A stretch of DNA of 64,000 nt from Diadema setosum (lineage: Eukaryota; Echinodermata; Echinoidea; Diadematoida; Diadematidae): contig NC_092685.1 in assembly GCF_964275005.1 (NCBI RefSeq), positions 26,707,649 through 26,771,648 on the forward strand, read 5' to 3'. The position numbers were made by a program, and so were the translations under genes. Below the pieces are notes generated by a model that had not been told where the DNA came from, ran no database searches, and was given only the letters and a program-made list of their open reading frames with translations. Shown piece after piece: positions 1,222 through 40,856 of the stretch; positions within the stretch are counted from its first letter, which is position 1, and the number at the start of each line of letters is the position of its first letter.

Positions 1222-4200
1222 TCAATGATGTCCCCTCCTCACGAGATAACACAGACTGACGAAGAGCGATGTCATCACAGCCCACATCGAGATGGCGATC
1301 CGGTGCGCACTCGACCCGTTATCCGGGATCATGCTCGTCATCGTCGTCGAGATGTCAGTTGGTGCTTGTGTCGAGCTTACTTCTGGGAATCCTTTATTGG
1401 CGACGACCCCTGCGTAGAAGTTCGCCGACTTCTTCGGCACGCGGGGTCGGTCGGGGTCCGTGAAGTCGACGTAGTGGAGCCCGAATCGCTCCGTGAATCC
1501 CATCGCCCATTCGAAGTTGTCCATTAGTGACCACGCCACGTAGCCTCGGACGTCGATGCCATCCAGTGATATAGCTAGACGAAGAACGGAAAATACATCA
1601 ACAAAACATCCAAAAAGACAAACATACACAAACAAACACAAAACAACAACATCAACATCAACATCAACATCAACAACAACAATATCAATATCAAAACCGA
1701 GTCGAAATTTAGATCTGCAGGATGTCGAAACGATGAGAGTACGGTGAGAAGTTCCAGAAACCACCTGTTCTCCTCTCCTTCCATTATTTTCACTTGTTAA
1801 AGTTTGCTGGGAACGTTTTTGCAACTTTAAGTTATGATATATCCTTCACACTGAACCTTACCACTTGTTCAACATTGTACAGTGAAGCATTAAATTAATC
1901 AAAGTTGTCATAGTTAATTGTTAGGTCGTTTAAACTCATGATTAGTAGAGATCTCTCTGCATGCTGATTCATCACTCATAGTGATGCCACCGGAAGCAGA
2001 TTATACTCCCCCACACCAAACTAAATTCATTAGAAACTACTGTCATCCCTATGATAATCGATAGGTATCTATATTACCCTTAAGGACTTCATTGATGTAG
2101 GCACGGAAATAGTTGACCCTGACGTCATCGTTAAGGTCACTCGTGTCATTAGTAGCCATGCCGTTCTCGGTGACGTAGATGGGGACGCCATACTCGTTGT
2201 GGATCCATCCCAACAGTCTTCTGATACCCCAGGGAACGATGCTGAACCACTGCTTGGCAGTCTTGGGCCAGGCGGGGTCTTTGAACGAGAGAACATCCTG
2301 ATCCAGCCAGTAGCTAACGCGCAAAGAGACGTTCACCTCTGGCACTGGCAGGGCAAGACTGCTGGTGTAGGTGTTCAGTCCGAAGAAGTCTGCCGTCTGT
2401 TTGATGTAGGCCTTCTCCTCCGCGGTGAATTCCGGAAGGCGAGACTGATTAAACTGAGGTTGAGCGGCGCTCTTCTGGGCGACCTTGTACTTCATCACTT
2501 CCGGGTAATCGCCGTCCAGGAAAATCGGATGGGCGAACCAGCCGAGGTTGAACTGGTGGGCGCGCTCGGCAGCTTCGACATGAGACGTGATGTTGGGGTT
2601 GTAGGGCTCGAAGTAGTCGGAGTTTAGGGTGATGCCGACCTGTCCGCCCTGTAGAAAGAGTGACGACGATCAAGAATTGTTGGCGTTGCCAATTTGTAAA
2701 GGAGTTACACGAACGCTACAATAATGAAAGTTGAATCTAGCATGATGATCTTCACGTTACCCCAACTTTTGAAAATTCTATCATCTGCTCTGATTACTAG
2801 TACTTTTTATACATAGTGTGCCATAAGTAAGAAATATTTGCCCCTGTTTTTTTATCAGCTTTCATGCTTATTTTATAGCGTCAGGTACAGTGTCTAAGCA
2901 GTTCAGTGTTGTGTGACAATTAATCTTGCCTTCGTTAATGTACAATTTCCGGGGCATATAAGGATACTTTCGGGGTAGAAATTTAGGTGAACATGGGATT
3001 GCTGACGGCAAGGTTATTTTTTTCCGTGGAAATAGTATGCATAATATAGTTCACTCTAAAAATGCAAATGTTGAATCAACATTTGAAAGGGCCGAGGAGT
3101 GACAGCATTTTTTGAAGTGTTAGATCCAACTTTTAAAATAACATTTTAAATGTTGAATCTAGCAGGAAAACTAACACTTTGAAAATGTTGTCACTTCTCG
3201 GCCCTTTTAAATGCTAATTCAACATTTGTGTTTTTAGAGTGTTGGTTGTGCTGAACGTGAACTGCAGTGTACGTTGTGATATAGCGGTTGCCGACAACAA
3301 AATATTCTTCAGACTACTGAGTAACTTACAAATATTAAGTCCTCTCACTCACGAGCCAGTTTGCTTTTTTACCTGAATTTTGCGATAGGTATCGTTGTAC
3401 GTGTGGTAAGCATGAGCATGCGCCTTTATGATGTTGTGCGCAACGACATACGTGCTTGTGCCGTCTTCTCTAATACCGGGAGCGAATTCTCCAGTGCCGT
3501 AGCCCAGCATGGTCACCACCCAAGGCTCGTTGAAAGTAATCCAGAGCTTCACCCGATCGCCAAATCTCTGGAAGCACAGCTCGGCGTAGCGATCGTAATG
3601 CTCGACCACCGACTCGTTGGTCCATCCGCCGACGTCCTGTAGGGCCTGGGGGAGATCCCAGTGATAGAGCGTGACCATCGGGGCGATGCCGGCGTCTCTC
3701 ATGGCGTTGATGAGGTTGTTGTAGTAACCGATGCCGGCTTCGTTGATGTAGTTGGTGGTGCCATCTGGTAGGATGCGAGACCAGGAGATGGAGAAGCGGT
3801 AGTACTTGAGACCCATCGCCGTCATGATGGCGACATCGTCCATGTACCTTGAAAAATTACAACAGATCGACATGGAAATGAAATATTCTGGACGCAGTTC
3901 TTACATGCCAACTTTTTAAATCGTCGTCATCGTGCTAACACATGCATCTTTTTAAAAAAGGGACATTTCAATTTATGGAACTATGATGATAAAGATATTA
4001 TAATATCAGAATGTACACGTTATTCACCGAAGTTACAAAAGTTACATCTGAGAACAATAAAAATAACTGTGCAACCACAGTCTTCCACGGCACAGAACAT
4101 TGCTGGTAAACAAAATATAAACTTTAATCAAACTATATAACAAAATCATGTTTCGTTACGCAGCGGTAGATATTGATATCAACAAAGTCAGTCAACAGTC

Positions 4201-4824
4201 AGCTAGAGATAGAGACAGACGAATCAGGTGAGACGGATAAAAGAACATATCTTTTAAAAAGAAATAATCAAAGTAAACAATGATGGTTTGGCAAATTACA
4301 TTCCTTCAAGGGAACCTATGTTAACCTATGATAAAACACGAACATAATCACAGCAACAGAACCAGCGTATTTTCACTTCTGCTATCTACGTGTCATCACC
4401 GAGTCGATTGTGTTGAAGAAACGTACACATGTAAACAATAGTTGTTGCTTTCTTCGAAACGAGTGCTCTTCGATATCAAAATAATAACCATATATAATTA
4501 TGTACAAAATCAATCCTACTTATGGTAACTGTCGCAGGTAACATCACCCGTGGCGTTGTTGGCGATGTTTCCCGGTTCGTGTGTGAAGGTGTCCCAGATA
4601 CTCGGCCCCTTCCCGTCGGCGTCCCAGCCGCCTTCGATCTGGTAGGCGGCCGTCGACGTGCTCCATAAGAAGTCATCGGGGAAGGTGCCGTACAGAAATG
4701 CGTCTCGCTCCGTGTCGTTGAAGACATCGGGGTAGACGAATTCCGGCTCGGCTGCCGTCATTGACCAAGATACAGTCAGGAAAATCACGCATACTCGAAA
4801 CGGGGCAGCCATTATTTTTTTCAT
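1222..4824 (-). CDS. GH1-A: lactase-like beta-glycosidase, four exons, 567 aa
   Basis: Family GH1 retaining beta-glycosidase. Coding exons in gene order are 4824-4520, 3847-3373, 2648-2078 and 1574-1222. They sum to 1704 bp with no internal stop and intron phases 2, 0 and 1. Exon 1 carries a signal peptide (a second ATG at 4812 gives a slightly shorter one) and the YQIEGGW glycone-site motif. Exon 2 has HWDLPQ and TFNEPW, with acid/base Glu about residue 209. Exon 3 has YVTENG, with nucleophile Glu about 421. Exon 4 has DNFEW. Length suits a single-domain LPH/LCTL-like enzyme. The C-terminus has a hydrophobic segment followed by RRGHH, more like a type I membrane tail than a GPI signal. It is the closest relative of GH1-C. 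Likely role: hydrolysis of beta-glucosides or beta-galactosides outside the cell. The substrate cannot be read from sequence. Confidence 0.9.
1638..1695. repeat. CAACAT-type microsatellite in GH1-A intron 3
   Basis: Imperfect tandem CAACAT/ATCAAC units within the intron between exons 3 and 4 of GH1-A (1575-2077). The valine/aspartate-rich or serine/threonine-rich frames across it are repeat artefacts. Confidence 0.8.
3052..3241. mobile_element. 190-bp palindromic MITE in GH1-A intron 2
   Basis: Both ends carry the inverted terminus CACTCTAAAAA. The arms continue as GGGCCGAGGAGTGACA on the left and, read from the other end, GGGCCGAGAAGTGACAA. The arms are about 80 bp each and diverge mildly towards the centre. 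There is no coding capacity. The superfamily was not identified and no certain target duplication is visible. Confidence 0.75.
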
Positions 4825-7103
4825 GGAAATAATTGGGTCTAGGCCCGGCAGTGTATAGTAAAGAAATGACCTGCTTAATTATCTAGGTGATGGGCCCTCA
4901 GGGTTACTCATTTTATGCAATCTTCAATCGTGTGCAGACAGTCTTCTGTTGCCTATGCTTATCTGACTGCTTTAAGTAAATCAGCGCCCTCGTTCGCTTG
5001 CTAAGGCGGATTAAGAAATAAATGTTATCAGACATCACCTGACCCACACGATAAACAGACTCCAATCACGGTATTTTCCTTTATTTCTTTCATTATTTCT
5101 ATCAGTCTGTTCATCTTTCTCTCGTGTTTGTTTGTTTTTGTTTGTTTTGTTTTTTACTTCTTGGCTGCCATCTTAGCCTTTCAATCTAGGCCCGTGTCTT
5201 ACCGTCTCTGTCTTATTGTATTTCATGTTACAGTCACATAGAGCTACGTTTCATTCTTGTAGAAATGTTCGTTTTCTGATGTAGGAAATGGACTCTCCTT
5301 TATCTTTGGTGTGGTGTAGAGTTCGAAGTCACGTTCATCACTGTTTGTTTATCAGGAAAACAAACCGTATCCCTCATCTTTCTTTCTCTCTCTTTTTCTT
5401 TCGTTCTCTGACTGCTTATTACCATTTGAGGTATATGAAACATTTATATTCGGTAAACTGCTTCATGAATGCCATCTATAATCTCCTAACTTTAACTTAA
5501 GAGAAACCACGGTGATTATGAATTGTTATTTCTCAATGGTGACGGAGTTTTCACGTGCTTTATACCTTCTGCATTGTTCTGTTCGCCTGTGTATATAATG
5601 TCTTTATTTTCAAAATGTCGTTTCATTTTGTATTTTATCACATCAAAGGGCTATTCTGAACTTTTAAAGTACGACAGAGCATTTCTATGTTATGCGATAT
5701 GCGATTATGTTAACCTTGCCATTTTGATACAATATCTTTTACTGTATAGACCTATGTGTTATGACTGTGTAAACAATGGTAGATGACTTGATATTACTCA
5801 GTATACAAATAGAAAATGAAAACAAGCAACTGTCTGTCAAAAGTTGTAGGTGTTTCCTGTAGAATGATGTAAACTATTTAAGTACCTGCTTGAATCACAG
5901 CCATGTACCGTATGATAATGATTTGTGTAAATTAATGCTTCTTTAAAAAAAAAAAAGAAATTAACTTTGTCTTCGACATCTTCACTGCCAAACTACCACC
6001 ACCACCAAGACCACCAACATCATCACCATCAACGTCAACATCTCCATCATTCCCCCAATCCTGCTCGTCATCATGAATTAATGGCACCATCAATTATGAA
6101 CCAAATCGTCGAGGATGACGAGTTGTGTCTAAATGGTTTCACCTTTGGACCTTCTAAAGTCTCATAACCATGAATTAAAAGTTGTAGCAATTTTATTCGT
6201 AAGGGGTCTCGAGAGGACAAATTTATATTACTATTTTGAACGGGACCAGCAAGATAACTAGGATTTTCGTCCTGTCATGTTGCACTCCACGTAGAAATAC
6301 GTCAAGAGGACATTCTTGTCGAAGTAAAAGTTATTGATAATTCACTACGATCCAATGCCCTGAATATTGTAATGTTCAATGAATTCTATGTATTTTCTTT
6401 TAACTTTAGAATGTGTATTACGTATGTGTGCGTATTATATACGATAGCTTCATTGAAAAGACCAAAACTTGCATTAATGGACGCCTACAAGATTTATATG
6501 TTTGTCAACAGTCAATGCAATGTGTATACTGTACTCGTTGGGTTGGATCCATTCGCTGACTTTGTTATTGTAAAATTACTCCCTAATCAACGATTTTCCC
6601 AAACCATGAAAAAAAATTATTCGTATACCTAGAGATTTGATTGACATACTGAAACTACAGTGATTGTGCCTACATATCCCATGCCATTGTATACCGCATG
6701 CGAACGACCACACCACACGCGCACATCACCAATTGAGGAGAAGAAAGAGGTCATATATACATTGTGTACTTGAATTTTAATCTGAGGAGCTGCGAGAATG
6801 GATATATTCTCAATTTTACACCCTGGGCTCTTATAAAATAAAAGAAAAGAAAAACATTGTCTGACAAAAGAGAAACTGCATCAAATTAACCGAACATACA
6901 ACCTAATAATAGAGGCTATGAGTGAAGGTATTTATAGGTTACACGTCTGCAGAAGTATAAACGTGAATTCCTTTAAATAAGAAGTTTATATCAAGATGAA
7001 CGGATTCGCTTCTTCATATTTTCAGTGAAGCATATTCTACCGCAATAAATACCTTCCTTTCCCCAATACTTTAGTCACTACTGAGATAAAGATTACAAAA
7101 GGC
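4825..7103. other. Intergenic between GH1-A and GH1-B
   Basis: This is the 5' flank of GH1-A and 3' flank of GH1-B, both minus strand. It is AT-rich, with a CAN-type low-complexity patch near 5,990-6,060 whose His-rich frame is not credible as a gene. No TATA box or other promoter element could be assigned with confidence. No further gene or recognisable transposon was seen. Confidence 0.5.
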
Positions 7104-8677
7104 TTAAAATATGAAATTCATTGCAAGAAGGTACACCCACACACCAATTATTACACAAGTGTCACCAATAGGTGGCGCACTTGCTGTTGTCGGGTCGGGA
7201 ATAGTAGTCGTTGAAATCTCCCTGACGAACCCGTTGTTGGCGATGATCTCAGCGTAGTCTCTGGCAGATTGCTTGGCCTCTCGTGGTCGTTCGGGGTCGT
7301 TGAAATCGACGTAGTGCATGCCGAAACGTTCGCTGTATCCCGAAGCCCACTCAAAATTGTCCAGAAGCGACCAGGCCGTGTATCCCTTCACATCGACCCC
7401 GTCTATATAAATAGCTGGGCGTGGCAAGGTGAAACGATAACGCACTCAGATTTCAGAGATATAAAATACGTCGATTTCCTATTACAGATGCTTGGAATTG
7501 AAGCTCAGATGAATTTGCGATTTAGTAAAGATTTCTCTATTGTTTGTTCTTCTTGTCTGTCTCTCTTTCTTTCTGTTTTTTCTGTCGATCGATTGATTTA
7601 TCCATTGATCTATATCTATCTATCTGTCTATCTATCTATCTATCTACCTACATACATACCTACCTATCTATTCTTTCTAAGATATATTATTTAATAGATA
7701 TAGTATTTAATCAGAAAGAGTGCATTGCTATGTGATAGTTGACTCGAAGTGCGTGATCTTTTTCATTTACAAAAATGCCTGACAAAATATATTACTGTTC
7801 TTTTATAAAGATTAAACGTCAACTCCCCATTTTACTGAAGTGTTGTTAAGGTGTCTTATTTTTTCAGCATTTTACAATGAAGGTGGTATTTGGATCAGAG
7901 TTACCTTTCAGGACCTCGTTGATGTAGGCGCGATAATATTTCTGTCTGATGACGTCATCGAGCTCGTACACGTCATGAGTAGAAACGCCATTCTCCGTGA
8001 CGTAGATGGGGACGTGGTAGTTCGTGTAGATCCACTTCAGAAGGTTTCGGATGCCCCAGGGCACAATCCTCAGCCACGAGGACCCTGCGACCTCCCAGTT
8101 CTCGTCAACGAAGGTGAGGACATTCCGGTCCTTAAGGTAGCCAGGAGGAGTGGAGTAATCCTCCGGCGTGTCGTTGGCGTAGAGGGTGGTGTACTGGTTG
8201 AGACCGAAGAAATCGGCAGTACCTACATGGCGGGCAAAACAAATCAAAACACTAATACCAATGTGCGCTTACTGTCGTTATATTTTTGTGTGATAAACAA
8301 TAAAAAGAGATGTGACTTCTGATCTTACGGCGCTATGCCTCTATTATTGTAAACGTTTCAACATCTGCAAGTTAGGGAAACACAAATCGATGACCTTTCG
8401 TCTGTTTGACACAAGCACGGTGGTCAGACTAGCAAAAACGGCATTTTTTTTTTTTTTCAATAGACCATGGAGAAATATTCCCAAGGCTTTCACTTTCACC
8501 GTTTTTTATCAATAGGTTTCGCCGGTCGAGACAAGTTTGGCCGTGGTGAGGTAAAAATCCATTAGTGTATTGCTAGGCTAGTCGTGCTAGTATGGAATCA
8601 TTATTACTTGTCGATCTAATATCTTGTTAAAGTCGATATTTGCCTTCCCTTTGCCTGCTCAAGGGATTTCAAATCGT

Positions 8678-8717
<40 letters not shown>

Positions 8718-11700
8718 ACACACATGCACAAACAGTACGTAAGCATTTTCAAAAGACGAAAAACAGTGAGATGTCATCCGTTTCAGGCATACCCATGTTA
8801 TATTCCTTTTCGTCCTCGGTGAAGGCAGGAAGGCGAGATTCGCTGAACCCTTGGGAGGCGCTCTTATTGGCTATGTTGGCTTTCATGATTTCGGGATAAT
8901 CCCCGTTGACAAAGATGGGGTTCGCGAACCAGCCCAAATGGAACTGTAACGCCCTGTCCGCGGCCTCGACATGCGCGGGATTGGATTGATCGAATGGCTC
9001 GATATGGTCGGAATTCAAGGTGATACCCACTTGACCACTCTGTAAACAGTTTGAAGCCATACAGAAAATTGTCACAGACATTGATCAATGTTTCCTGTTT
9101 GTTTGCCCATTAACTTTACGAGCTGCAATGTGAATAAACAACTAAAAAGAATATAGAAATTTACATCGATCAAATCAAAAACAAAACACAGTAGAGTAGT
9201 TGCGAGAATCATTCGTCACCCTTTTTTCGACCATTATTTCGTTGAACTTTAACGAGTAGGCCTAAATCGGAAACCAGAGCAATCCTTAAACAGAGTTTGG
9301 CCATCTGGGTTTCAGTTGGCCTCAACATGGTGTGCATTCCTTGTTACATGCTTCCTTACAACAAAGCATCATGCCGTCATAGTGCCACTGATTTCTTTAT
9401 ATCTGCATTACTTCCCAATTCAACAGAGATCAGTACACAGCGCTGTCGGGTGTACAGGTGGCCAGTTTATGACCCTGCTCGAAACCTGCCAACAGCGCCC
9501 TCATGTTATGATTAATTTTATGGGCTCTGTGAATCTTGGCGTTGTCGGATGACGAGGAAGCAGAGGATGTATAATTACCGTCACCATGACGACTTTGAAA
9601 TCTATCATTATACATGTACAAGATTAAGACATAAATAATCTATTCCGATTATTTCTTGGTTGTTTCTTTATTTCATATTATATCATGTGTGATAGGGAAA
9701 CTGTAGGGGCTCAATGGGTATAAGACTATGGTTATCAATCATGAGGTACCTTGCTCGAGTCCTCTGGCTACAGTGGTTGTGACTACGTGTAAGACACTGT
9801 ATCATTGCTTACTAGTCCTTTCTGCTTGCTTACAAGTATTTATTACTTCCTTTAGTGACCACTAACAGTAAAAAAAAAAAAAAAAATCAATATCATATAT
9901 AGTTAAACCCACAATGAATATGAGTTTAGCATTGCAGGCCTAAATACTACAAAACCCAGTGTCAACCTTACCTTTCTCAAACCTTACCTATAAGACACAC
10001 ATTCAAAAACAAAAATGATCACCGACACATATTACCTGATGCCGTCGGTATGTGTCGTTATAAGTGTGCCATGCCCTCGCGTGAGACTTTATGATGTTAT
10101 GGGCCACAACGTATATCGTCGTCCCGTCTTCGACGATGCCAGGGGCGAAGTAGCCGATCCCGTGGCCGAGCAGCGTGACAATCCAGGGCTCGTTGAAGGT
10201 GATCCAAAGCTTAACGCGATCACCAAACCTCTGGTAGCACAGCTCGGCGTAGTCGTTGAAGTGCTCGATGACTGTCTCGTTGGCCCAGCCACCGACGTCC
10301 TGGAGAGCTTGAGGCAGATCCCAGTGGTAGAGTGTCACCATAGGAGAGATGCCGTTATCACGGAGTTCGTTGATGAGGTTGTTGTAGTAGGAGATGCCAG
10401 CTTCGTTGACGTGATTTAGGGTGCCGTCGGGAAGGATTCGCGGCCAGGAGATCGAGAACCGGTAATACTTCAGACCCATCGCACTCATCAACGCAACATC
10501 TTCCTTGTATCTGCACATGCGCCGTAAAAACAACAATTTGCATATCGAGTAAGTATAGGTGATGGGCATTCTGCCTCCTGTTACCATGGCATTGAGACAT
10601 ATACACTGCAAACATGCAATAGCTGAGAAATATGATAAGATTTATGATCAAACATTATAATACTATGGGGTACTTCTTTTACAGAATCCACATCTGACAC
10701 TGCACGTTACTGTCGGTGATGTATTTGTCCACATTCCAAATATACTTGTCAACCTACCCAAATCTCCGTCAGCCTGGTGTAATTATGCGACATAGCAGCA
10801 AAGTCTTAAAAGATCCGTTATGGCTAAATGGATAAAGACTGAGTGTACTCGAAGCCTTTTAGAAATTGTCCAGAAGCGACAGACTATGGCCCTCAATAAG
10901 TGAAGTCCATGGTTCGAGCTCTCTGGAGGCAGCAGTTTTGCCCGGGTGCACGTCCCGAGTTCGACACCTACGAAATCATACAGCCTATGACTTCGACACT
11001 AAGCAAACAAGGCCCACGAGACCGACACATCAAGCCCCGTGTTTTAAAGATAATAAAAAGTTTTGGTACCTCAAAAGCTTCCCTGAATTTCCTTGTCTTG
11101 GTTTGTGTTTCAGGTTAAAGTACGTTGTCTGTGAGAATTTCTCGCCCCACAGTGCTCTCATGTCTTAGTAATCATGCAATAATGGTTTCGTACCAGAGCC
11201 GACGCTGTACAGCGTCGATAAATATTGTACGAAACCACTGACTGCAACCAGCAGCGTGCAGCCCATTGTACGCATAGCTAACCAGTCAGTCCGCAGCACC
11301 CGATAATTCGCTCGTATTTATTCAACTCGTATGCAAGCCCGCTCTAGGCTTGCATACGTAATGAGCTGCGTAAGGGGATTTTGTCCTTGGGCTTTCGGCA
11401 ACAAAAATACACCTTATGTTCACAAATTTGGTATCAAATTCAAGGAAAATATGTAAACTATCGTCACATGTTACTCAAATTATTGTAAATGAAAAATGTC
11501 ATAGCGTAATTTGAGCTTGAAAAATGATGAAAAAAGTAATTCGTGTAGTACACGTTCAAGACGTTCAAAAAATACCAAATTCACCTTGCGTCTCAATGAA
11601 AATGCTTTATTTGGTAGTCCATCTCCAAATCTTTGTATCCATTTAAATATCTTGACAGTTTGTTGCTTAATCCGGTCAGGAACCAGTAAAATATACATCG

Positions 11701-14700
11701 ATGTCAGTGCTGATCAGCTTGAAACCGTGCAATCTCAAGAGTAAGCTCTCTCATTGGACAGCGCTTGCATTCAGCGCTTGCATTACGTTATTACGCTGCT
11801 ACATAACGGTTTCATGCCACTTGCGGTTTCTTGGCACGGGTGTAGTTCAAGCCAAGTTCAAGTGCTGGATGCAAGCACTGTCCAATGAGAGAGCTCTCTC
11901 GCGCCACTGTACACTTTGTGTGGAGCATACTTCCGGCTTAGGAGTGAATTTTACAGATATTTCAAAACGGAAAAACTAGTATAAATCATGCTTGCGTCTC
12001 CTTGACTCCACTATATGATGAGCATCTAAGTTTCCTCTCTACGAAAAAGCCAAAATCAGAAACAACAGTTTCTTAATCCGGTCAGGAACCAAAAAAGAAC
12101 TTTAGACGACAAATTCTTCCGTGAAAAGCAAGTAAAATCTACGCAAATTCAACTGATTATATAGTCATGATAAGATCCGATGTTATATACAAATTTAGTA
12201 TCAAAATAAAGATCAAAGTCTGGAGAAGAATTTACCGTGACTTGTAGCCATGACGAATGTATGTACAAGTCGCTACACTGTGAAAACCATAGCCCTATCA
12301 AAGTCTCGCAAAATCTCGCACGACGAGACACAATTTCGAACGCAAAGATCGTCAACGAGAGTGCTGAATAAATCTTGCCGGATCGGCTCATTAGCATACG
12401 TGCTGCGGACTGACTGTAACTGCGACCAGCAGCCCCATACGCATAGCGTAATGGGGCTTCGCATTGTAGCATTCAGGATCATGACAGAATTAGTATCGCG
12501 GGTAAATGTCAACTTAAAATCCAAAAATTTCTTTGATTTGAAGACTTACCAATTAAGATGAAGTATTGAAAACAGGCTTCGAACATCGTTTGGTTCTGCC
12601 AATAGTCCCTTTCTGTTCGAATTGATGACTGAATGTGACTCGGTCGAGAGGACCTTGGGAGAGCTACATACACTGGATACCATGGCCAGCGCATGCGCAC
12701 ACAAACATCGTATCCGTTCATGGATTTGAAATCTGTGTGCATGTGATGTGTTCGCATGCAGTGGCTGTAGTATTCAGTGTACTGTGTAGCTCTCCTAAGG
12801 TCCTGTCGACCGAGTCACATTCAGTCATCAATTCGAACAGAAAGGGACTATAGACAGAACCAAACGTTGCCCAAAGCCTGTTTTCAATACTTCAACTTAA
12901 TTGGTAAGTCTTCAAATTGACGAATTTATGGGATTTTAAGTTGACATTTACCCTGCGATACTAAATCTGTCATGATCCTGAATGCTACAATGCGAAGCCC
13001 GATTACGCTATGCGTATGGGACTGCTGGTCGCTAAATAAATGCGCATGGGGCTGCTGATCGCAGTTAATTGCATGATTACTAAGACATGAGAGCACTTTG
13101 GGGCGAGTAAGTCTCACAGTGTTAGTTATATGAAAGGTACTTTAACCTGAAACACAAACTAAGACAAGGAAATTCAAGGACACTTTTGAGGTACCAAAAC
13201 TTTTTATTATCTTTAATGCCAAACTTGTGGGTTGTTTTCCCCTATTGTCGAACTCATGGGCCTCATTAGTGTCAAACCCATGGGCTGTATGACTTATGGG
13301 TGTCGGTCTCGTTGGATGACCCCGTTTTGCCAGTAGGCCTACTGCCTTAGGGCGGGTACTTCAGTCTCAATGCCTAGTAATCCTTCATATCTTCATAATA
13401 ATCTTATTCTTCAGTTTTAAGATTTCGAGTGCTTTCTTAATGGCACTATAGCTGTTGAATCAATAAAAGCGAAATGCTAAACGGAACATCATCAACATCA
13501 TAGGTAAGAACTATTCTACACTGTATCTTATCGTAAGAACTGCAGGTTTAAAGCACTCTCATAAGGACAGTGGAATTTAGGCAATTTAGGCAAGTGTGGA
13601 GAAAACCTATAGGTTTGCCATCACTCACCCCCACCCCACCCCTTCCGTCTCATCTCCAACGATCACAACAACATTGAATTTAAAACGTTGGAATCGATAA
13701 TGTTTCTCCAACTCCAGTGTATTATACCTAATTGGCTTGGAAGATTTACAATGCATGCAAACGCTTACACGAACTTTGTTAAAGCATTCATTTTATACCA
13801 TGACATTGTCTTCTAGCTGTAATATCAGTGTTTCTACAACATATTCATTTTCAGTTGTGACAGTCTGAGGCGTTCCTCCTCCTTATGTACCCAAGTGTGA
13901 GACGTGTTTGTTATGTTGTTGTTGTTGTTGGTTTTTTGTTGTTTTTTTTTTGTTGTTGTTGTTGTTTTTTTTTTGGGGGGGGGGGTGATTTGTAAAACAG
14001 TTTTCACCTTGAAACAAAAATAAAAACATTACAACGTTCCAGCTCCTATGCTGATACTAAAAACTAAGTAGAACAAAGGGCACATGGATTTAGTACATCT
14101 TGATAAAAGTTTTCGGTCAAAGTTGCATTAACAGGGGGAGGAGTTAAAACTACTTCTCTCAGTGTATGTCTGGGACAAACAATTCACGTAATTCTTAATG
14201 ACGAATGTACTTGAGGTTAAGTGTTCATCATCAATACCAGGTAGAGTCACGAGGTTTTACACGTGATGAGATGACGTAATTTTTTGATCGTTATTGTACC
14301 CTTTCTCAAAGTGGTACAATCCGATCAGCTTAACGTTTGTAACCGCCATATGCTCATTCCTGGTACCACCAGTTAACATACTTTAATGTATATAATAAGG
14401 ATTTGTCTGCTTTTGTATCTTTTAAATTCGCTCATGAAGAGCTTAAGTTTCTGTCAAGCGGCGTTCAAACTGATTAATACTCACGAAATCAAACATTGCC
14501 AAAAACTATATTGATATTATACTTACCAATGATAGTCACAGAAAACGAAGTAATAACAGTAATGGCAACGAATAAGGTTCTCCGTCCTATGAGAAATCGG
14601 ACAAAACAATCAGAGCCCTACGTGAACCTATACCAAAAAAAAAAAAACAAACAAACAAACAAACAAACACGAAACAAACAAATAGACTCACTTGTGGTAG

Positions 14701-14990
14701 CTGTCGCATGCCACATCGCCAGTGTCATTGTTGTAGACATTGCCCCCTTCGTGGGTAAAGGTGTCCCAAATGCTGTCACCTTTACCGTCCTCGTTCCACG
14801 CCCCTTCGATTTGATAAGAAGACGTCGCCGAGCTCCACACGAAGTCGTCGGGAAACGTTCCGTAAAGGAACGCGTCTCTGACGGGGTCGTTGAAGCGGGT
14901 CGGGTAGACGTACTCGGGTTCTGTGTCTTCTCCGGTCACCACGGATGCGACGAATAGGAGCGCGGCGACTTTGAGGAGTTCTCCAGCCAT
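7104..14990 (-). CDS. GH1-B: lactase-like beta-glycosidase, five exons, 549 aa
   Basis: Family GH1. Exons in gene order are 14990-14692, 10510-10036, 9039-8793, 8222-7905 and 7414-7104, 1650 bp with no internal stop. The start is the ATG at 14,990, which gives a signal peptide ([18 protein letters not shown]). An in-frame ATG at 15,041 would add 17 residues and blur the signal. Catalytic motifs are intact: TFNEPW Glu about 207 and YVTENG Glu about 417, with HWDLPQ and DNFEW also present. The homologue of the third exon is split by an extra 570-bp intron (8223-8792) just before TADFFGLN. The two pieces sum to 565 bp, the same as the single exon in GH1-D. The protein ends in a hydrophobic tail finishing at the stop, as a GPI-attachment signal would. 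Intron 1 is 4.2 kb and filled by a foldback repeat. Confidence 0.88.
7609..7672. repeat. TCTA microsatellite in GH1-B intron 4
   Basis: Tandem TCTA/CTAC tetranucleotide units inside the intron 7415-7904. Confidence 0.85.
8680..8724. repeat. CA microsatellite in the extra intron of GH1-B
   Basis: About 22 CA units with one interruption, inside the GH1-B-specific intron 8223-8792. Confidence 0.9.
10820..10930 (+). repeat. tRNA-like (SINE-type) fragment, weak
   Basis: An A-box-like TGGCTAAATGGATAAAG is followed about 80 bp downstream by a B-box-like GGTTCGAGCTC. The spacing is too long for a real tRNA and no cloverleaf can be drawn, so a decayed tRNA-derived SINE head is the likeliest reading. 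It abuts the left arm of the foldback repeat. Confidence 0.35.
10931..13335. mobile_element. 2.4-kb foldback-type inverted repeat in GH1-B intron 1
   Basis: Long arms face each other. The left arm includes AAAGATAATAAAAAGTTTTG near 11,045 and TGTTTCAGGTTAAAGTAC near 11,105. Their reverse complements lie at about 13,195 and 13,135. A second, inner palindrome is centred near 12,735: GACTCGGTCGAGAGGACCTT on the left is answered by GTCCTGTCGACCGAGTC on the right. No transposase frame is present. The segment 11,180-12,390 has no matching partner arm and looks like an insertion or unique core with its own hairpins. It is probably a Foldback-like or composite MITE cluster. Confidence 0.7.
11740..11912. 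repeat. Hairpin repeat nested in the foldback core
   Basis: CTCTCTCATTGGACAG near 11,747 is matched by the inverted CTGTCCAATGAGAGAG near 11,878, enclosing a related GTTTCATGCCACTTGCGG stretch. A direct repeat TTAATCCGGTCAGGAACC occurs at about 11,668 and 12,074 around it. It looks like a small palindromic element inserted in the larger inverted repeat. Confidence 0.55.
13336..14691. other. Remainder of GH1-B intron 1
   Basis: AT-rich intron sequence with a GTT/poly-T/poly-G run at about 13,915-13,985 and an AAAC run at 14,640-14,675. No gene or defined transposon seen. Confidence 0.5.
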
Positions 14991-17269: not shown

Positions 17270-17848
17270 ATGTTTGCATGTATCAGCATGAGGACTTCGG
17301 CATCGCTATTGGTTCCTGTTCTCCTGATCGTCGTTGGCACGTCGACGGCAGCCGAGCCGGAGTTCGTCTACCCCGATGTCTTCAACGACACGGAGCGAGA
17401 CGCATTCCTGTACGGCACCTTCCCCGATGACTTCTTGTGGAGCACGTCGACGGCCGCCTACCAGATCGAAGGCGGCTGGGACGCCGACGGGAAGGGGCCG
17501 AGTATCTGGGACACCTTCACACACGAACCGGGAAACATCGCTAACAACGGCACGGGTGATGTTACCTGCGACAGCTACCACAAGTAGGCCCATGAATTGA
17601 TTTGAATTAGTTTGATTGTCATCTTCATTCAAAACATAGTCAATCTATCTAATGGCTTATAGAACGCAGTATGAGATCATTTTCTAACATGAAGGGCATG
17701 AGATGTTGCCCTGTTGATCTTATGAAGTCGTCTGGTAATTGGTGAATAGAATTGTCCTTTATTATTATTCGTATGTTTTGTGTTTGTGCGTTTTTTTGTC
17801 TGTATGTCCATCTGTCCTGTTTCATGTGTCTTCGTGACAACGACGTCA

Positions 17849-17888
<40 letters not shown>

Positions 17889-19698
17889 TTTTTTGGGGGG
17901 GGGGGGGTTGCTCTCTTTGCTATGTAGTTCGCTTAGTTATTGTGTTTATCGATCGTGAAGTAGACAGCCTTGAGGTTGAAAATTACTGGTGCTCCTAAAC
18001 ACCATCTCGTCATCACGAATACCATAATGACACTCAGATTATTCCCTTAGAGAATGTATGACACAATAATGTTCTTTGCCAAAATTCGAGTGATATGACG
18101 CCAATTAATAGAGTAGCACCTCATTCCGTTGTCGATCTGTTGTAATTTTTCAAGGTACATGGATGACGTCGCCATCATGACGGCGATGGGTCTCAAGTAC
18201 TACCGCTTCTCCATCTCCTGGTCTCGCATCCTGCCAGATGGCACCACCAACTACATCAACGAAGCCGGCATCGCTTACTACAACAACCTCATCAACGCCA
18301 TGAGAGACGCCGGCATCGTCCCGATGGTCACGCTCTATCACTGGGATCTCCCCCAGGCCCTCCAGGACGTCGGCGGGTGGACCAACGAGTCCGTGATCGA
18401 GCACTACAATCGCTACGCTGACCTGTGCTTCCAGAGATTTGGCGATCGAGTGAAGCTATGGATAACTTTCAACGAACCGTGGGTGGTGACCATGCTGGGA
18501 CATGGAAACGGAGATTTTGCGCCTGGGATTGAGGGCGACGGTACAATTACGTACATCGTCGCTCATACGATCATCAAAGCTCACGCCCGTGCGTATCACA
18601 CGTACAATGACACTTACCGTAGGATACAGGTACGCAATTAACAAACTTGGTCGTATATTTTTACCACACTCACTTGAAGTTCAATCGTTAAGATCAATAT
18701 CGAATAAACTGATAAATATATCCATTCTAACAATAATATATGATAAAACATCTTCCCAGCCGTCAAAGAATCCTGCTGTACTTTTGTGTAATACTGTAAA
18801 CTTCAGCACACACTAGCTGTTGTGTCCACTGCAAAAATGTCCCACCAATCATTATCATAAATGTGCTAAGAACCTTTAAAAATTCATAAATTTACAATTT
18901 TTTTAAAACTTCTCTTAACAGAGCATAAGAATTATTGACTCTCTGATGAATTTTCATCGAATTGTGTTTCAGGGAGGAGAAATTGGAATCACTCTAAACT
19001 CCGACTTCTACGAGCCGTTTAATCGTAGCGTCCCATCTCATGTCGAAGCTGCCGATCGCGCCTTCCAGTTCTACCTTGGCTGGTTCGCTCACCCGATCTT
19101 CCTCAACGGTGACTACCCGGAGGTCATGAAGTACAAGGTTGCCCAGAAGAGCGCCTTCCAATCGCAGTTCAACGAGTCCCGACTGCCCGAGTTTACCGAG
19201 GAGGAAAAAGCATACATCGTCCACACCGCCGACTTTTTCGGTTTGAACACGTACACCAGCAGCCTCGTCCTTCCCGTGCCCGAGCTCAACGTCTCCTTGC
19301 CCGTCAGCTACTGGCTGGACCAGGACGTTCTCCCTTTCAAGGACCAGAGTTGGCCCTACACCGCCCACCAGGGCTTCAGGATCGTACCCTGGGGCATCCG
19401 CAGGCTCCTGGCCTGGATTTACAATGAGTACAATGTCCCCGTCTACGTCACTGAGAATGGCATGGCAACAACCGACACTGATGACCTCGACGATGAGGAA
19501 AGAGTCAAATACCTTCGTTCCTACACAAACGAAGTTCTCAAAGGTAACTTATTGTTACTGATCGATCCAGCTTTGTCACAACTATGTCTCAAAATAAGAC
19601 CGACTAGATTATGTGCACGTCCATCGAATTCATTCATTCATTCAATTGCCATTCATTTATTTCCATCTCCGACAATAACATATAACTATGTGGATTTT

Positions 19699-19756
<58 letters not shown>

Positions 19757-20430
19757 AAATAAGCGCATATATTGACATAAGTGAATATTGTCTGGATTAT
19801 GACGAGATCAGTATAAACTGCACACAGGTAAAAATACATGAAATACGACACTTCTCATGACATATTCCGACGCTCAATAATCTGCGTTTTGTGCTTTGTA
19901 GAAATTGACCTTCATTTGCAAAGAAGTGAACATACAAAAGTAATGGAACATACAAATTACCATTTTTTTTTTTTAGATATCATAGAGGTGTTGTCCTCCT
20001 CAACGTCTTTGCTACAGAATTTCCCTGATTTATCAGGATTTCACTCTCATTTGTTCTGTTCACAATAAATACAAATATGTAAATACATTTCCGTTTTCTC
20101 ACAGCTTACTTACTCGACGGCGTCGACGTCAGGGGCTACGTCGCCTGGACGCTCATGGACAACTTCGAGTGGGCAGTCGGTTTCACAGAACGATTCGGAC
20201 TCCACTACATCGACTTCAATGACCCCGAGCGAACTCGCATCCCAAAGAAGTCGGCGAGTTTCTTCGCCGAAGTCATTAGGAACAATGGCTACCCGGAAAC
20301 GACCTCGACACAAGCACAAACAGAAGCTTATCCGTCCACCACTGCGGACAGCTCGAGTGTCCACCGAGTCACGTGCTACGCTCTATTGATGTCAATTTTC
20401 ATCAGTCTTTTTTATTCTATTTGTAATTGA
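17270..20430 (+). CDS. GH1-C: lactase-like beta-glycosidase, four exons, 561 aa
   Basis: Family GH1. Exons 17270-17583, 18155-18629, 18973-19543 and 20105-20430 total 1686 bp, open throughout, with phases 2, 0 and 1. An ATG at 17,288 gives a cleaner signal peptide ([16 protein letters not shown]) and may be the true start. Motifs: YQIEGGW, HWDLPQ, TFNEPW (acid/base Glu about 212), YVTENG (nucleophile Glu about 424) and DNFEW. The mature part of exon 1 and the first half of exon 2 are about 97% identical in DNA to GH1-A, including about 20 bp of intron before exon 2. Exon 4 and the signal peptides differ much more. The C-terminus is hydrophobic to the last residues (ending FYSICN), as expected of a GPI-attachment signal. 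The probable product is a surface-tethered beta-glycosidase of unknown substrate. Confidence 0.9.
17848..17907. repeat. Compound TA/T/G simple repeat in GH1-C intron 1
   Basis: A TA run, then a run of T, then a run of G, contiguous in the intron 17584-18154. Confidence 0.9.
19700..19753. repeat. TG microsatellite in GH1-C intron 3
   Basis: About 27 TG units about 160 bp downstream of exon 3 of GH1-C. The Val/Cys-rich extension of the exon 3 frame across it is not coding, because the frame leaves a good donor (AAAG|GTAACT) at 19,543. Confidence 0.9.
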
Positions 20431-21624: not shown

Positions 21625-21673
<49 letters not shown>

Positions 21674-23724: not shown

Positions 23725-25865
23725 ATGGCAACAACCCGGTTGCTAGTACTGGCGGTGGGACTTCTTGGTCTTGTGGTTGCTGTTACCGCAGCAGATCCCG
23801 AGTTCGTGTACCCCGATTACTGGAACGATCCGGAACGGGACGCCTTTATTTACGGAACGTTTCCCGATGGCTTCATCTGGAGTTCGGCCACTTCCGCCTA
23901 CCAGATCGAAGGGGCTTGGAACGCAGATGGAAAGGGAGAGAGCATTTGGGACAATTTCACCCATGAAGGGGGCCACGTTGCCTACAACCAAAATGGCGAT
24001 GTCGCTTGCGACAGCTACAACAAGTAAGGCGCCATTTGTACTTTCCTTTTCTTATTCTGTCAATGTAATATTTTTGATAGCTTTACATGAGAATCTAGAC
24101 GTATGCGTATTTTTGATGGTGTGGTTTCTGTTTGCAGCATTTTGGTGGCAGTATCGTCCATGATTTGCAGCTCTTTCATGGCATTCATGTCATGATTATG
24201 CATTTACTCTCTATTGTAAATTCTGAACTAGGCAAGCGAAATCATTATAGCGACAAAAACTCACAATGTTATCGATGAAAATAGAAGTACAAAGAGAAAT
24301 TGAAATGACATTCAGCTGAACGCAGAAATACCAGGCAGATGGCAATTTCTGCAAACTCTAAACACCAATGATTTACAACAATAAATATTGTCAACTATGT
24401 TCCTATATTGACTTAATTAGCATAATTACAAGAGGTGGTGTGCAAAGTATATGACTAAAAATTAGCAGCGAGAAAAAATTTCAGCACCGGCTTTAATGCT
24501 AATTGCTGTATTAAGTCAGAGTGTCAGTAATCTGTAAGCACTGTCGAGATGATATGACGATATTTCATGAGACATTTCAGAGATTATCTTTCAACGTAGA
24601 CATAGAGACCGTCTATGTCAACCTAAAACGAATAATAACTAAAAAGGTCAGAAGTCTACCAAGTCAGTGGGGGAAAAAAAAAGAACTGTAATGAGCATAC
24701 TTTCATTGCCTTATCAACAGAATGCTACGTGAACACACACATACAGATGTACACACTATCTTGTAATAAAGAGAGAGGGGGGGGGGGGGGAGATAGAGAT
24801 ATCCATTATCTTTGTTGACCAAAGCATGGCGGATGTTCAAGTTAAGAGTACCTCTATATTTCACTCAAGAGAAGAGACTGTCCGACGGTTCATTGCAGGT
24901 ACCGAACGGATGTTGCTCTGATGAAAGCCATGGGTCTCAAGTACTACCGCTTCTCCATCGCCTGGTCTCGCGTCCTCCCGGACGGCACCATCAACAACAT
25001 CAACGAAGCCGGAGTCGCCTTCTACAACAACCTCATCGATGAAATGTTGGTGAACGGAATCTCGCCGATGGTGACGCTCTACCACTGGGACCTGCCCCAA
25101 GCCCTGCAAGACAAAGGAGGGTGGGACAGCGAGGACATTATCGACTACTTCGCCGACTACGCCGAGCTGTGCTTCCAGCGATTCGGAGATCGAGTGCCCC
25201 TCTGGATCACATTCAACGAACCGTGGATCGTGTCTGTTTTCGGCTACGGTACGGGCATCTTCGCCCCAGGACTGGCCGAGATTGGGTCTGCCCCGTACAG
25301 GGTCACTCACAACATAATCAGATCCCACGCAGCCGCGTATCACCGCTACGACGACAAGTACAAGGCAAGCCAGGTAAGCACAGCTGCATTTGTAATCACG
25401 TAATTTAATAATTTAAGTTACTACAGTGTACTATAGGAGAGCATGGAAGTGCTAGGAAAATTTACCCTAGGTCCTATTATAAGATTATTTTGTTTTATTC
25501 TTACCAAAAATATTGTGATGGTTGCAAGAACTTGCAACCATCACAATATTTTTGGTAAGAATAAAACAAAATAATTCCTATAATAGGACCTAGGGTAAAT
25601 TTTCTAGCACTATCGATGCTCTCTATAGTACACTGTCGTAATTTAACTTATCAAATACGTGATGTCCATTATCAGTGCTTGCACACTGTTTTATAGTACT
25701 CAGTAGTACTAGTATATTATAGCGTAATACACTAGCTCCATGGTCTTCTTCCCTATGGATAGGCAAAGATAGTCTGCTGGAAATTACATCATGCTATTTA
25801 CTCTTAGCCCCCCCCCCCCCCCAAAAAAAAAAAAAAAAAAAAAAAAAACCAAACAAACAAACAAA

Positions 25866-25904
<39 letters not shown>

Positions 25905-27186
25905 CAAAACAAAACAAAACAAAGCTCACGACAAAGCTTGACATTGTCATTTACGTGTCTAATTTCAATCATACTTAATTCAGAATGGCAAAGTTGGGAT
26001 CACCCTAAACTCCGACTGGTCCGAACCGTACGACAGGACCAACCAGACGAGCCTCGACGCCTCCGACCGCGCCCTCAACTTCAACATCGGATGGTTCGCT
26101 CATCCCATCTTCATCAACGGAGACTACCCTGAGATCATGAAGACCAAAGTGGCTAAGAAGAGTGCCGCCCAGGGCTTCAACCAATCTCGATTGCCTGAAT
26201 TCACCGAAGCTGAGAAGGCCTACATCAGGGGCACCGGAGACTTCTTTGGTCTGAACACCTACACCACCAATCTCTGCGTCGCCGTGCCGGAGAACCTTGA
26301 CGGCGACCCGAGCTACTGGGCGGACTCCGACATCGCCTCGTGGCAAGACGGCAGCTGGCCGGGGTCCGGCTCTGGCTGGCTCAAGATCGTCCCGTGGGGC
26401 ATTCGCCGTCTCGTCAACTGGATCTACAATGAGTACAATGTGCCGATTTACGTGACGGAAAATGGCGTCTCCACCAAGGATGTCTACGAAATAGATGACG
26501 TCATCCGGCAAGACTATTACCGCGCATACATCAACGAAGTCCTCAAAGGTAAAATACTGAATTTTAAAGTGCTGGGAACACAAGCAGAAAAGAGAATAGG
26601 GAAAGGTTTGGTCACGAGAGTGATCAGGTTACTAACACAAGGAGGGAACCGAACATTTTTATAATTCAAGCACACATGGTTTATTCTTGTGAAAGTCAAA
26701 CCATTTCTCTAATTTAGATTTGATTAAATTCTAAGTGAATTATTTCTATCAATAATGACAGTTTTTTATTGAAACTTCACTCTAATTTTGGCCTATTATA
26801 TTCCTCTCTTAATCTTAGCAAGATATCACATTAAACATTGAACCTTTCCCTCATCCTTATCCGCAGCTATTACACTGGATGGTGTTGATGTGAAAGGATA
26901 CACGGCATGGTCTCTTCTTGACAACTTCGAGTGGGGAGCCGGCTACACCGAGCGTTTCGGTCTCCACTACGTGGACTTCACCGACCCTGATCGACCACGA
27001 GAGGCTAAGAAGTCAACCACAGTGCTCTCCGAGATCATCGCCAACAACGGCTTCATTGCCGGGGCCGGGACTTCGTCACCCCAACCAACAACGGGTAAAG
27101 GGACGTCGATGAAATTTCAAGCCAGTGGCGTGGCGCTTACTTGTCTGATGGGTTTCTTATCATGGGCTCTGGCTCTTTCTTCGTGA
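23725..27186 (+). CDS. GH1-D: lactase-like beta-glycosidase, four exons, 552 aa
   Basis: Family GH1. Exons 23725-24023, 24899-25373, 25984-26548 and 26867-27186 sum to 1659 bp without stops, with phases 2, 0 and 1. The start ATG at 23,725 opens a clear signal peptide ([18 protein letters not shown]). YQIEGAW, HWDLPQ, TFNEPW (Glu about 207), YVTENG (Glu about 417) and DNFEW are all present. After the catalytic domain comes a Thr/Ser/Pro/Gly-rich linker, then a hydrophobic stretch ending in LALSS at the stop. This is the most GPI-like tail in the cluster. Exon 3 (565 bp) lacks the intron seen in GH1-B, its closest relative in length. It is on the same strand as GH1-C, 3.3 kb downstream. Substrate unknown. 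Confidence 0.9.
25421..25638. mobile_element. 218-bp near-perfect palindromic MITE, TA-flanked
   Basis: The two halves are reverse complements about a centre near 25,530: TTGTGATGGTTGCAAG meets CTTGCAACCATCACAA. The termini are CTACAGTGTACTATAG and, from the other end, CGACAGTGTACTATAG. A TA lies at each edge (25,419-25,420 and 25,639-25,640). ACAGTG-type ends with TA targets fit a Tc1/mariner-derived MITE. It lies in GH1-D intron 2. Confidence 0.8.
25808..25924. repeat. Compound C/A/AAAC/CA/AAAAC simple repeat
   Basis: Runs of C, then A, then AAAC units, CA units and AAAAC units in succession, in GH1-D intron 2 just before exon 3. Such compound runs are prone to assembly error. Confidence 0.9.
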
Positions 27187-30100
27187 TATGGGGAAAAAAC
27201 GAAGTAATTTGTTGTTGTTGTTGTTGTTGTTGTTTTTTCATAGCATATGATAAGCTGTCAACAAGTTAAACATATTTATTACAGCTGTACATAATATACT
27301 GTGGGCAGTAATATCGTCGTTAATCAGAAATACACAATGGCACACCTTTCATTCTGTGATAAAGATTAATTTGAATGGCTCAATGAAATGCGTTATGATT
27401 TGTTACTTTTATCAACGTATTCATCGCAAGAGGAGCAGCGGAACACTTTTGGCTCTTGAAAACATGCCAAAAAAAAAAATCGAAAGAGCATTCTTCAAAT
27501 TACGACTAAATACTTGACTCCAAGAAGATTCTACTCGAAGTCTCTTTTCGAATCGTGGTGAAGGGGAGATGTGAACCATTGACTCTTTCCCCTCCCACAC
27601 AAACACACATACAAACACACACACTACTAAAGATCCCGCTGCCCCTGCATGTAATACTGCTTTTGAGGACCAATGAATTATCAGAACATTCTATTGTTTT
27701 ATGATGTCAAACGAACAATGTATTATGAAGAGAATTTCATTGCTTTGCGCTTTTTGAACGAACTTTGAAATACAGAGAATTTTGAATTGTGGAAATTTGA
27801 TTTGCGCAACGTATACAGTTACAGGAGTAAAAGCAGCTTCCAGTAGAAGGCTCGATGAATTTGATACTTATTGGAGGAAAGAGGGTTGTATGTGTGTGTG
27901 GGTGTGGGGGGTATGTGCGTGTGTGCTTGTGTGTGTGTGTGTGTGTGTGTGCGTGTGTAGAAGTGTGTGCCTGTGTGTATGAGAAATATCTTACTTTTCC
28001 TTTGCCAAGGTCATGCAAGTGTAGAGTACACTTGATTGAGCTTGCGATGCGAACGTATATTAGACTCTTGTTAGTTTAGGACATGCAGGTGGTGAGTAAA
28101 CGTGCATAATAAAATTCAAAATCATCATTATCAAGCTTCAGATTCGTTTGTTTAACTTTGTCTGTGCGTCATTTGTCAAGAACATAAGACACTCTCAATT
28201 CCAGCCACTTATAAGAGTTTTCAGACTATGGTGCCGAGCCTGTGTATTATTGCATGATGTCTGAAAGCACTACCAATTATTTTTTACAATCAAGCAGAAA
28301 TGCAGGAAACTATACGCTGATAAAAAAAGATCGACAAATCGAAAGCAACACATTTTGAATTAATCTTTGGGAGTCAACTTTTATTGATTTTAATTCTTTG
28401 ATGTCATAATATAGCTGTAAGTAGACCTACACAGAAATTTGTCGTAGAAATAACAGTGAAAGCGAACAGCTTCATGAATCTTCAAATTGATGAAATTGTT
28501 GCCTTGAGTTGATTTTATTGCGACGTAAATAAGTGTTTTGGTAGTAGCCATTATAAAACATCATGGCATACATAGTCCTGTTTGATTATGTATGCCCATG
28601 ATTTTTCATAAATTATATATATATATATATAGGAAACGTGACGACAGTGTAGCAGAGAGAAAATGAGCGTAAAGAGATACATTACATTACCTAGCATAAC
28701 AAACCATGACTGACCCCCCCCCCCCAAAAAAAAAAAATAAATGAAAAGGAATATGAATTAAACAATATGAAACAATATTATTATTCATGCGGACTGGCAT
28801 ATTAGTGGAAGGAAACGTTGTTTAAATTTGTGGATAGCTTGTCAAACTTGTATACTTTCTACATCAATTTCACTTCATTTCAAGGTTAAAAAATAGACTC
28901 CACAAAAAAGGGAAAAGTCATTATGTTGATTTCAAAAAAGCACATGCAGCAATTGAATACCAGGCGCAACGACAATTTCCATGCATTAGGATTGCTTGTT
29001 CATCGATTGAAAAACAAAACAAAACAAAACAAAACGTATGACTTGCTAAATACATCTAGATATTCCAGACTGAAATATTTCCTTCCATCCACTGACCCTG
29101 TTGAACGGACATTATTCAGTAGATGCTCAGCTAAGCTATATCACACATGTCAGAGGCCTTGGCATTGACTTTAGAGACGCATATTACTATTTCGTCACGA
29201 CTTGGCATTCTGCAATGATATAAATTATGGTCTGCTACTTAATGGATCTCTTACAGTGTTAGCTTTATTCTTCCGAAGGGCGCTGACATAATGATAGCCC
29301 AGCATTTCCATGTAACCATAATTGGTCAAGAGGAGTATAGGAAAAGATACCTTGTCCAATAATTACTAGCACATAATCTCAACACAGCTAACGTTCTTTG
29401 CTGATGCCAGAACGTTATTCCCTATACCATGTTGTTTATACATTTTCGGAACGTATTGTGTGGCATCATCACCATCGATTACAAGATTTATGATTATGAG
29501 AAATTATTGCAAGATTCCATTTTAATGAGAGATGACACATGTAGTGAGGGATGACATCACGACAGAATAAAGAAGTACTTATTCCACTTAAGTATCTATC
29601 ATATTCATTGACTGCTTTGGAAGTTTACAGTAAGAACTGTTGTACACATGTGTTACTGGAATACCCTGTCCCTAATCTGCACTCATTGACTGATCGCAGC
29701 AATAGTGCCCATGTCCGTCGTTACACAGGTTTCATTCACACGATTACATTCCTTAAAAAAAAGAAAAAAACTAGGAAGTCTTTTGTACCCTTATATGCCG
29801 CAATAATATCCCTATTTTCATGAATTTATTGTCAGATTTTTCGCAAGGAGAAAGGGAAAAAATTACAGCGTCTTGCCGAATTGTTGACAGCTTGTCTTTA
29901 AGATTAGCTCATAATTATGTAGCTTAAGACATTACAACCCAACGACACCTTGCCATTCGGCACCATCATCGCCACCGTCACTATTACCATTCTCTTTCTC
30001 AAGTCTTCCAGCTCAAACATGAATTTTGTGAGCCCAACAGCATATGACTTAATGCAATATTAAATCATTATTGACATACCAATCAACCGACAGGCTCTCT

Positions 30101-30220
30101 GAATGACAAAATGCTGTCAAGATGAATAATTGTTTTTCAGCATCTGATATACAGTCGATCTGCCGAGCCATGGGCTCATAATGCTAAACCAAACTAACCC
30201 ATTGTCCACTATGAGACAGA
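27187..30220. other. Intergenic between convergent GH1-D and GH1-E
   Basis: Both genes end here. It holds a GTT run just after the D stop, a GT-rich microsatellite at about 27,890-27,985, a C/A run near 28,715 and a TA patch near 28,615. A stretch at about 28,520-28,580 (GTAGTAGCCATTATAAAACA) matches part of the SINE-like repeat at 37.4 kb. A minus-strand AATAAA at 29,825-29,830 could serve GH1-E. No gene seen. Confidence 0.5.

Positions 30221-40856
<10,636 letters not shown>

Follow-up and report, generated by a model that had tools for sequence, protein, structure and literature searches.

Introduction

Glycoside hydrolases of family 1 (GH1) carry out retaining hydrolysis with two glutamates, a mechanism that is well established. 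The family includes the vertebrate gut enzyme lactase-phlorizin hydrolase, which has several GH1 domains per chain, and the klotho proteins, which have lost the catalytic glutamate(s) and have non-digestive roles. The cytosolic beta-glucosidase of PDB entries 2e9l, 2jfe and 2zox is the product of human GBA3. The sea hare enzyme akuBGL digests laminarin and consists of two GH1 domains, the first of which is inactive (PMC10619976, partial text). Insect GH1 sets have been tied to cell-wall digestion and to the detoxification of plant metabolites (PMC9500737, partial text). For the sea urchin, 142 GH genes have been counted, and a GH1 count does not appear in the available part of that paper (PMC6011409). 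No paper on sea-urchin GH1 gene families was recognised among the best literature matches listed, and most subscription journals lie beyond the coverage of that search.

The five-gene cluster

The window, which is the whole stretch of 64,000 nucleotides analysed here, corresponds to bases 26707649-26771648 of chromosome C1 and is free of N. It holds five GH1 genes between positions 1222 and 40853, in the order and orientation A-, B-, C+, D+, E-:

1222..4824, minus strand: GH1 gene A, 567 aa; exons 4824-4520, 3847-3373, 2648-2078, 1574-1222
7104..14990, minus strand: GH1 gene B, 549 aa; exons 14990-14692, 10510-10036, 9039-8793, 8222-7905, 7414-7104
17270..20430, plus strand: GH1 gene C, 561 aa; exons 17270-17583, 18155-18629, 18973-19543, 20105-20430
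23725..27186, plus strand: GH1 gene D, 552 aa; exons 23725-24023, 24899-25373, 25984-26548, 26867-27186
30221..40853, minus strand: GH1 gene E, 496 aa; exons 40853-40606, 38338-37864, 31579-31012, 30420-30221

A tblastn search of the window with its own exons recovered the GH1 exons of all five genes, and no further convincing GH1 exon was found in the window (two other rows, E 0.25 and 0.86). Each splice model gives a single open frame, with GT/AG at all 16 introns, and the spliced proteins of A to E match PF00232 from end to end with 600.8, 587.8, 579.4, 584.0 and 591.2 bits, respectively, where the curated cut-off is 22.6 bits. These scores exclude chance as the source of the matches. The profile search finds one GH1 stretch per protein in all five, and a PF00150 match in E (21 bits) lies below cut-off. 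A reading made earlier from the sequence only had placed five in-frame genes at these coordinates and on these strands, each with both catalytic glutamates, and it was right on all of these points: the acid/base Glu (in the motif NEP) and the nucleophile Glu (in TENG) are present in every gene. The second coding exon is exactly 475 bp in all five genes, as that reading had it, and also in three relatives elsewhere on chromosome C1 (F1, F2 and G1, below).

Two other claims need to be narrowed. Three introns with phases 2, 0 and 1 are common to the five genes, but B has a fourth, so that exactly three introns describes only four of them. The genes had also been called complete-looking; the catalytic domain is whole in each, but the model of E has neither a signal peptide nor a C-terminal tail. 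A picture of five uniform genes thus does not stand, given the extra intron of B, the absence of both end signals from the best model of E, and the sequence exchange that appears to have taken place between A and C.

The window also contains the following elements:

3052-3241: self-palindrome in intron 2 of A
12422-13032: self-palindrome in intron 1 of B
25395-25663: self-palindrome in intron 2 of D
31952-34849, plus strand: non-LTR retrotransposon frame, 965 aa, in intron 2 of E and antisense to E
36230-36616: self-palindrome in intron 2 of E, with a 78% relative at 10-347
43365-43690: self-palindrome
44344-45279, minus strand: major facilitator (MFS) transporter exon (PF07690, 61.9 bits)
48469-48928: self-palindrome
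61158-61490, plus strand: calponin-homology (CH) exon (PF00307), best PDB matches alpha-actinin, then beta-spectrin

The palindromes are imperfect (68-91% identical) and are possibly fold-back or MITE-like elements. The retrotransposon appears to belong to a young family, with at least seven further places that share 99% identity with it across residues 2-965, one of them interrupted by a stop, among the 50 matches listed, 47 of them scored out of 27489 candidates.

The GH1 family across the genome

In line with an echinoderm source, the genome (912,680,840 bases in 102 contigs) contains two matches to bindin (193.3 and 55.6 bits), a sperm protein of sea urchins and other echinoderms, and its mitochondrial COX1 is open when translated with the echinoderm code; TGA as Trp also occurs in other animal mitochondria, and the COX1 frame by itself is no proof. 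A PF00232 search of this genome gave 63 matches, with all 61 candidates scored. By our own grouping these make up 13 genes and one fragment, and 11 of the 13 genes are on chromosome C1. The cluster is part of a larger expansion, five of the 13 genes counted genome-wide. The members outside the window are:

C1:1.56-1.59 Mb: GH1 genes F1 and F2
C1:2.29-2.31 Mb: GH1 gene G1
C1:17.39-17.42 Mb (17391272-17419783), minus strand: GH1 genes H1-H3, a same-strand trio with its own intron plan
C12:20519423-20526980, minus strand: GH1 gene I1
C12: GH1 gene J1
C12:20648024-20648143, minus strand: fragment K, similar to J1's final exon but with four residues missing in a gap

Fragment K is probably a dead partial copy. 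The models of I1 and J1 have poor joins and probably miss one exon each, so that their rows in the alignment, the tree and the residue comparison are partial; the J1 model omits a stretch that is visible in tblastn.

The 13 genes follow three intron plans, given here as alignment columns. A-E share columns 108, 268 and 460 with F1, F2 and G1, making eight genes. H1-H3, which have dS of 0.44-0.72 among themselves, have introns at columns 208, 304, 385 and 460, and I1 and J1, in their partly poor models, at columns 79, 142, 208, 313, 404 and 460. The intron at column 460 is common to all 13. In the protein tree of the 13 genes the eight-gene group has 99/98 support, and within it A with C and F1, F2 with G1 have 100/100 each, while the placement of B, D and E is unsettled. 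A clade of the five window genes apart from F1, F2 and G1 is not supported: of 200 bootstrap trees, 0% have a branch that separates the window set from all other genes. The best tree requires two changes between the window and F1/F2/G1 labels, and the starred branches force one only.

The mixed orientations had been attributed to duplication with inversion, which is borne out by the sister genes A and C, oppositely oriented, and by the five genes being old paralogues. The cluster is real and of a known enzyme family; it is best read as an ordinary, old expansion without a new mechanism, and it overturns no known principle.

Active site

All five window genes are identical to akuBGL in the alignment at Q529, H630, N674, E675, N817, Y819, E885, W927, E934 and W935. 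The residues that we take to form the glycone site are kept in all five (Q, H, N, N, Y, W, E, W). Positions 677, 681, 689, 846 and 857 dock laminaritetraose in akuBGL (PMC10619976, partial text). Here F677 is replaced by Trp in A-E, W681 by M, L, M, V and V in A to E, respectively, and Y846 by K, V, K, Q and H in the same order; F689 is kept, and W857 is kept save for Gly in C. Judged from these residues, the copies agree at the end of the active site that binds the sugar and vary at the end that faces the leaving group. Since the laminarin-docking positions partly differ, A-E do not necessarily share a preference for laminarin.

Targeting signals and predicted role

End signals were read from hydropathy only. 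By this reading both protein ends are hydrophobic in A-D, F1, F2, G1 and H1-H3, and the two ends of A-D are taken as a signal peptide and a C-tail. GPI-anchored proteins carry a signal peptide and, behind an omega site, a hydrophobic C-tail; A-D have hydropathy peaks at both ends, and E has neither peak. The last residues of A's tail are charged, and this tail may be a membrane span. I1 and J1 end in KDEL and KTEL, respectively. I1 has Gln in place of the acid/base Glu (INQP) and Gly in place of the Trp that follows the active-site His, and J1 keeps the acid/base Glu, both models being partly poor. An acid/base Glu to Gln change is known in plant myrosinases.

On balance we lean towards reading the cluster as an old expansion of retaining beta-glucosidases, in which A-D would be membrane-bound digestive enzymes of the gut and E a cytosolic one. 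A-D are predicted to enter the secretory pathway and to remain at the cell surface, facing outwards and attached through a GPI anchor or a single C-terminal span. In that position they would split glucose off beta-glucosides by retaining catalysis with two glutamates. The gut lining is their most likely site. There they would finish the breakdown of oligosaccharides derived from laminarin and cellulose, and of algal glucosides, much as mammalian intestinal lactase and the sea-hare enzyme akuBGL do. E is probably a cytosolic enzyme, like human GBA3. We infer the gut function from the algal diet of Diadema setosum (PMC11066563, partial text), from the beta-glucosidase measured, along with beta-galactosidase, in the stomach and intestine of Strongylocentrotus (PMC12461134, partial text), and from the parallel with akuBGL. 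Laminarinase is reported from S. purpuratus larvae (PMC12079659, partial text). Diet is our best guess for the role of the cluster, and A-E are a defined set of genes that could underlie the beta-glucosidase activity of the sea-urchin gut, in a reef grazer that is now entering the Mediterranean.

The enzymes might instead chiefly detoxify or activate glycosides, either algal phenolic or other glucosides or the animal's own defence or signalling glycosides, in which case gene number would track chemical variety and not sugar supply. A fixed sugar end with a leaving-group side that varies from copy to copy is what different aglycones would lead one to expect, and the insect GH1 sets are linked to plant-metabolite detoxification as well as digestion (PMC9500737, partial text). 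However, no glycoside pathway gene lies beside the cluster among the flanking exons looked at (MFS and CH-domain), and nothing connects A-E to a given glycoside. We consider this rather unlikely. It is less probable still that A-E serve the turnover of the animal's own glycoproteins and glycolipids, or development, at cell surfaces and not food. The membrane-type signals of A-D would suit such a role, as would the presence of klotho proteins among the best PDB matches, but none of the five window genes shows the klotho-type loss of catalytic residues. The digestive reading of A-D remains the one we prefer.

Gene E

E groups with A-D, F1, F2 and G1, all seven of which have end signals, and for this reason E most likely lost its own signals independently. 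In the 120 bases that precede the start codon of E there are seven candidate acceptors. Six of them are followed by an in-frame stop ahead of the ATG, and the seventh, which is open, scores -8.8. Exon 1 itself holds four candidate acceptors, the best of which, at 40828, scores 1.1, where the 37 modelled introns score 2.3-14.5. An upstream signal-peptide exon is just possible, as acceptor 40828 is just under the lowest score of a modelled intron. E has two N-glycosylation sequons, the fewest in the eight-gene plan (the others have 3-9), which speaks somewhat for a location in the cytosol. Over 490 columns, private replacements number 22 in E, 31 in A, 23 in D, 18 in F1 and 11 in B, and by this count E is about as constrained as its sister genes.

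The loss of both ends could also mark the start of pseudogene formation, with E, and perhaps others, a decaying copy. The two missing ends still count for this, as does a long intron 2 that holds a young retrotransposon. The frame is unbroken, though, the splice sites are all GT/AG, the catalytic residues are all kept, and the private replacements are within the range of the other copies with no excess, and we regard decay as highly improbable. A functional E, probably cytosolic, is the reading retained here.

Age of the genes and probable exchange between A and C

By Nei-Gojobori counts, A/C has the lowest pS of the ten window pairs, 0.49, and the nine others have 0.68-0.76. Seven pairs with computable dS have dN/dS of 0.08-0.18, ratios that are rough, since most dS values are at or above 1.7; A-B, B-C and B-E are saturated. 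These counts indicate that the window genes are old and under purifying selection. That A-E are assembly duplicates of one locus, for which the A/C similarity over two blocks and nothing else speaks, is vanishingly unlikely, since the window has no N and silent sites are near saturation in nine of the ten pairs, and pS of 0.49-0.76 across the ten and the unlike introns of A and C also stand against it. The sequence-only reading had raised such duplicates as a possible undoing of its claim; by silent-site divergence the five copies are paralogues.

A and C are oppositely oriented, and the start of A (4824) is 12.4 kb from that of C (17270). They are most alike in two blocks:

4515..4759, minus strand: block 1, aligned with C 17344-17588; 238 of 245 bases identical, taking in the greater part of exon 1 and 5 bases of intron 1
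3508..3872, minus strand: block 2, aligned with C 18130-18494; 25 of 25 final intron-1 bases and 322 of 340 first exon-2 bases identical

The bulk of exon 1 and the beginning of exon 2 are 95-97% identical, and the last 100 bases of exon 2 are 69% identical. dS is 0.27 in exon 1, 0.61 in exon 2 and 1.57 in exon 3; the catalytic portion of exon 4 gives 1.24 and the tail 0.83. Of 432 variable third positions in total, 130 lie before column 183, and A and C agree at 91% of these and at 48% of those after it. The changepoint score was reached in none of 5000 shuffles and the longest identical run, 29 sites, in one of 20,000; the shuffles assume independent sites and so overstate the precision, but the contrast is large nonetheless. 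Intron 1 is similar at its edges only, in the 5 bases past exon 1 and in 34 bases ahead of exon 2 that blastn matches at 91%, and blastn gave no other intron-1 match with E below 0.1.

This patchwork of similar and diverged stretches fits gene conversion that halted where the introns are unlike. A cDNA (spliced-RNA) template for the blocks is unlikely, because block 2 includes the 25 identical intron bases. The unlike remainder of intron 1 may go back to two separate events, to a single event that stopped where the introns were unlike, or to a later replacement of the intron.

A broader proposal, which we put forward tentatively as possible but short of likely, is that GH1 has spread over three compartments: the cell surface (A-D, F1, F2, G1, H1-H3), the cytosol (E) and the endoplasmic reticulum (I1 and J1), with one of the ER copies, I1, having changed its acid/base Glu to Gln. 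Conversion between A and C, halted at the unlike introns, would keep their N-terminal part alike as the rest drifts.

The extra intron of gene B

The third coding stretch of B is interrupted by an intron that has an in-frame stop if read through:

8223..8792, minus strand (8792-8223): extra phase-1 intron of B, 570 bp

Joining B across this intron gives a protein that aligns there without a gap to the other GH1 genes. The intron lies at alignment column 351 and occurs in one of the 13 genes; it is absent in 11 others with usable models, and an uncut tblastn match of J1 spans the site. Most simply, B has gained this intron. An introner or repeat origin is not supported, as the 570 bases match nothing but themselves, once, in a genome search that passes over simple repeats and very common words.

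Comparison with known systems

The cluster offers natural comparisons on one catalytic core: A-D with E for the effect of targeting signals, B with the other genes for an extra intron, and A with C for patchwork similarity between inverted copies. Among solved structures, 8in1 (akuBGL) scores best for both A and E, the two proteins searched. A-E share the catalytic and glycone-site residues of the active second domain of akuBGL, whose source is, like the sea urchin, a marine algal feeder. They differ from it in having one domain each, where akuBGL is a two-domain chain of an inactive and an active GH1, and in the changed positions 677, 681 and 846, as well as 857 in C.

Lactase-phlorizin hydrolase is a membrane-held GH1 ectoenzyme, and A-D are predicted to have a similar topology; all five window genes, however, encode a single GH1 domain. 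The cytosolic beta-glucosidase likewise has a single domain, and E in its present model resembles it in having no signal peptide, but E clusters with the seven signal-bearing genes. Klotho and beta-klotho are GH1-fold relatives found among the best PDB matches of A and E, from which A-E differ in retaining both catalytic glutamates, in one domain. The insect GH1 families are also multi-gene sets, linked to plant use (PMC9500737, partial text), and they are a separate lineage from the sea-urchin set.
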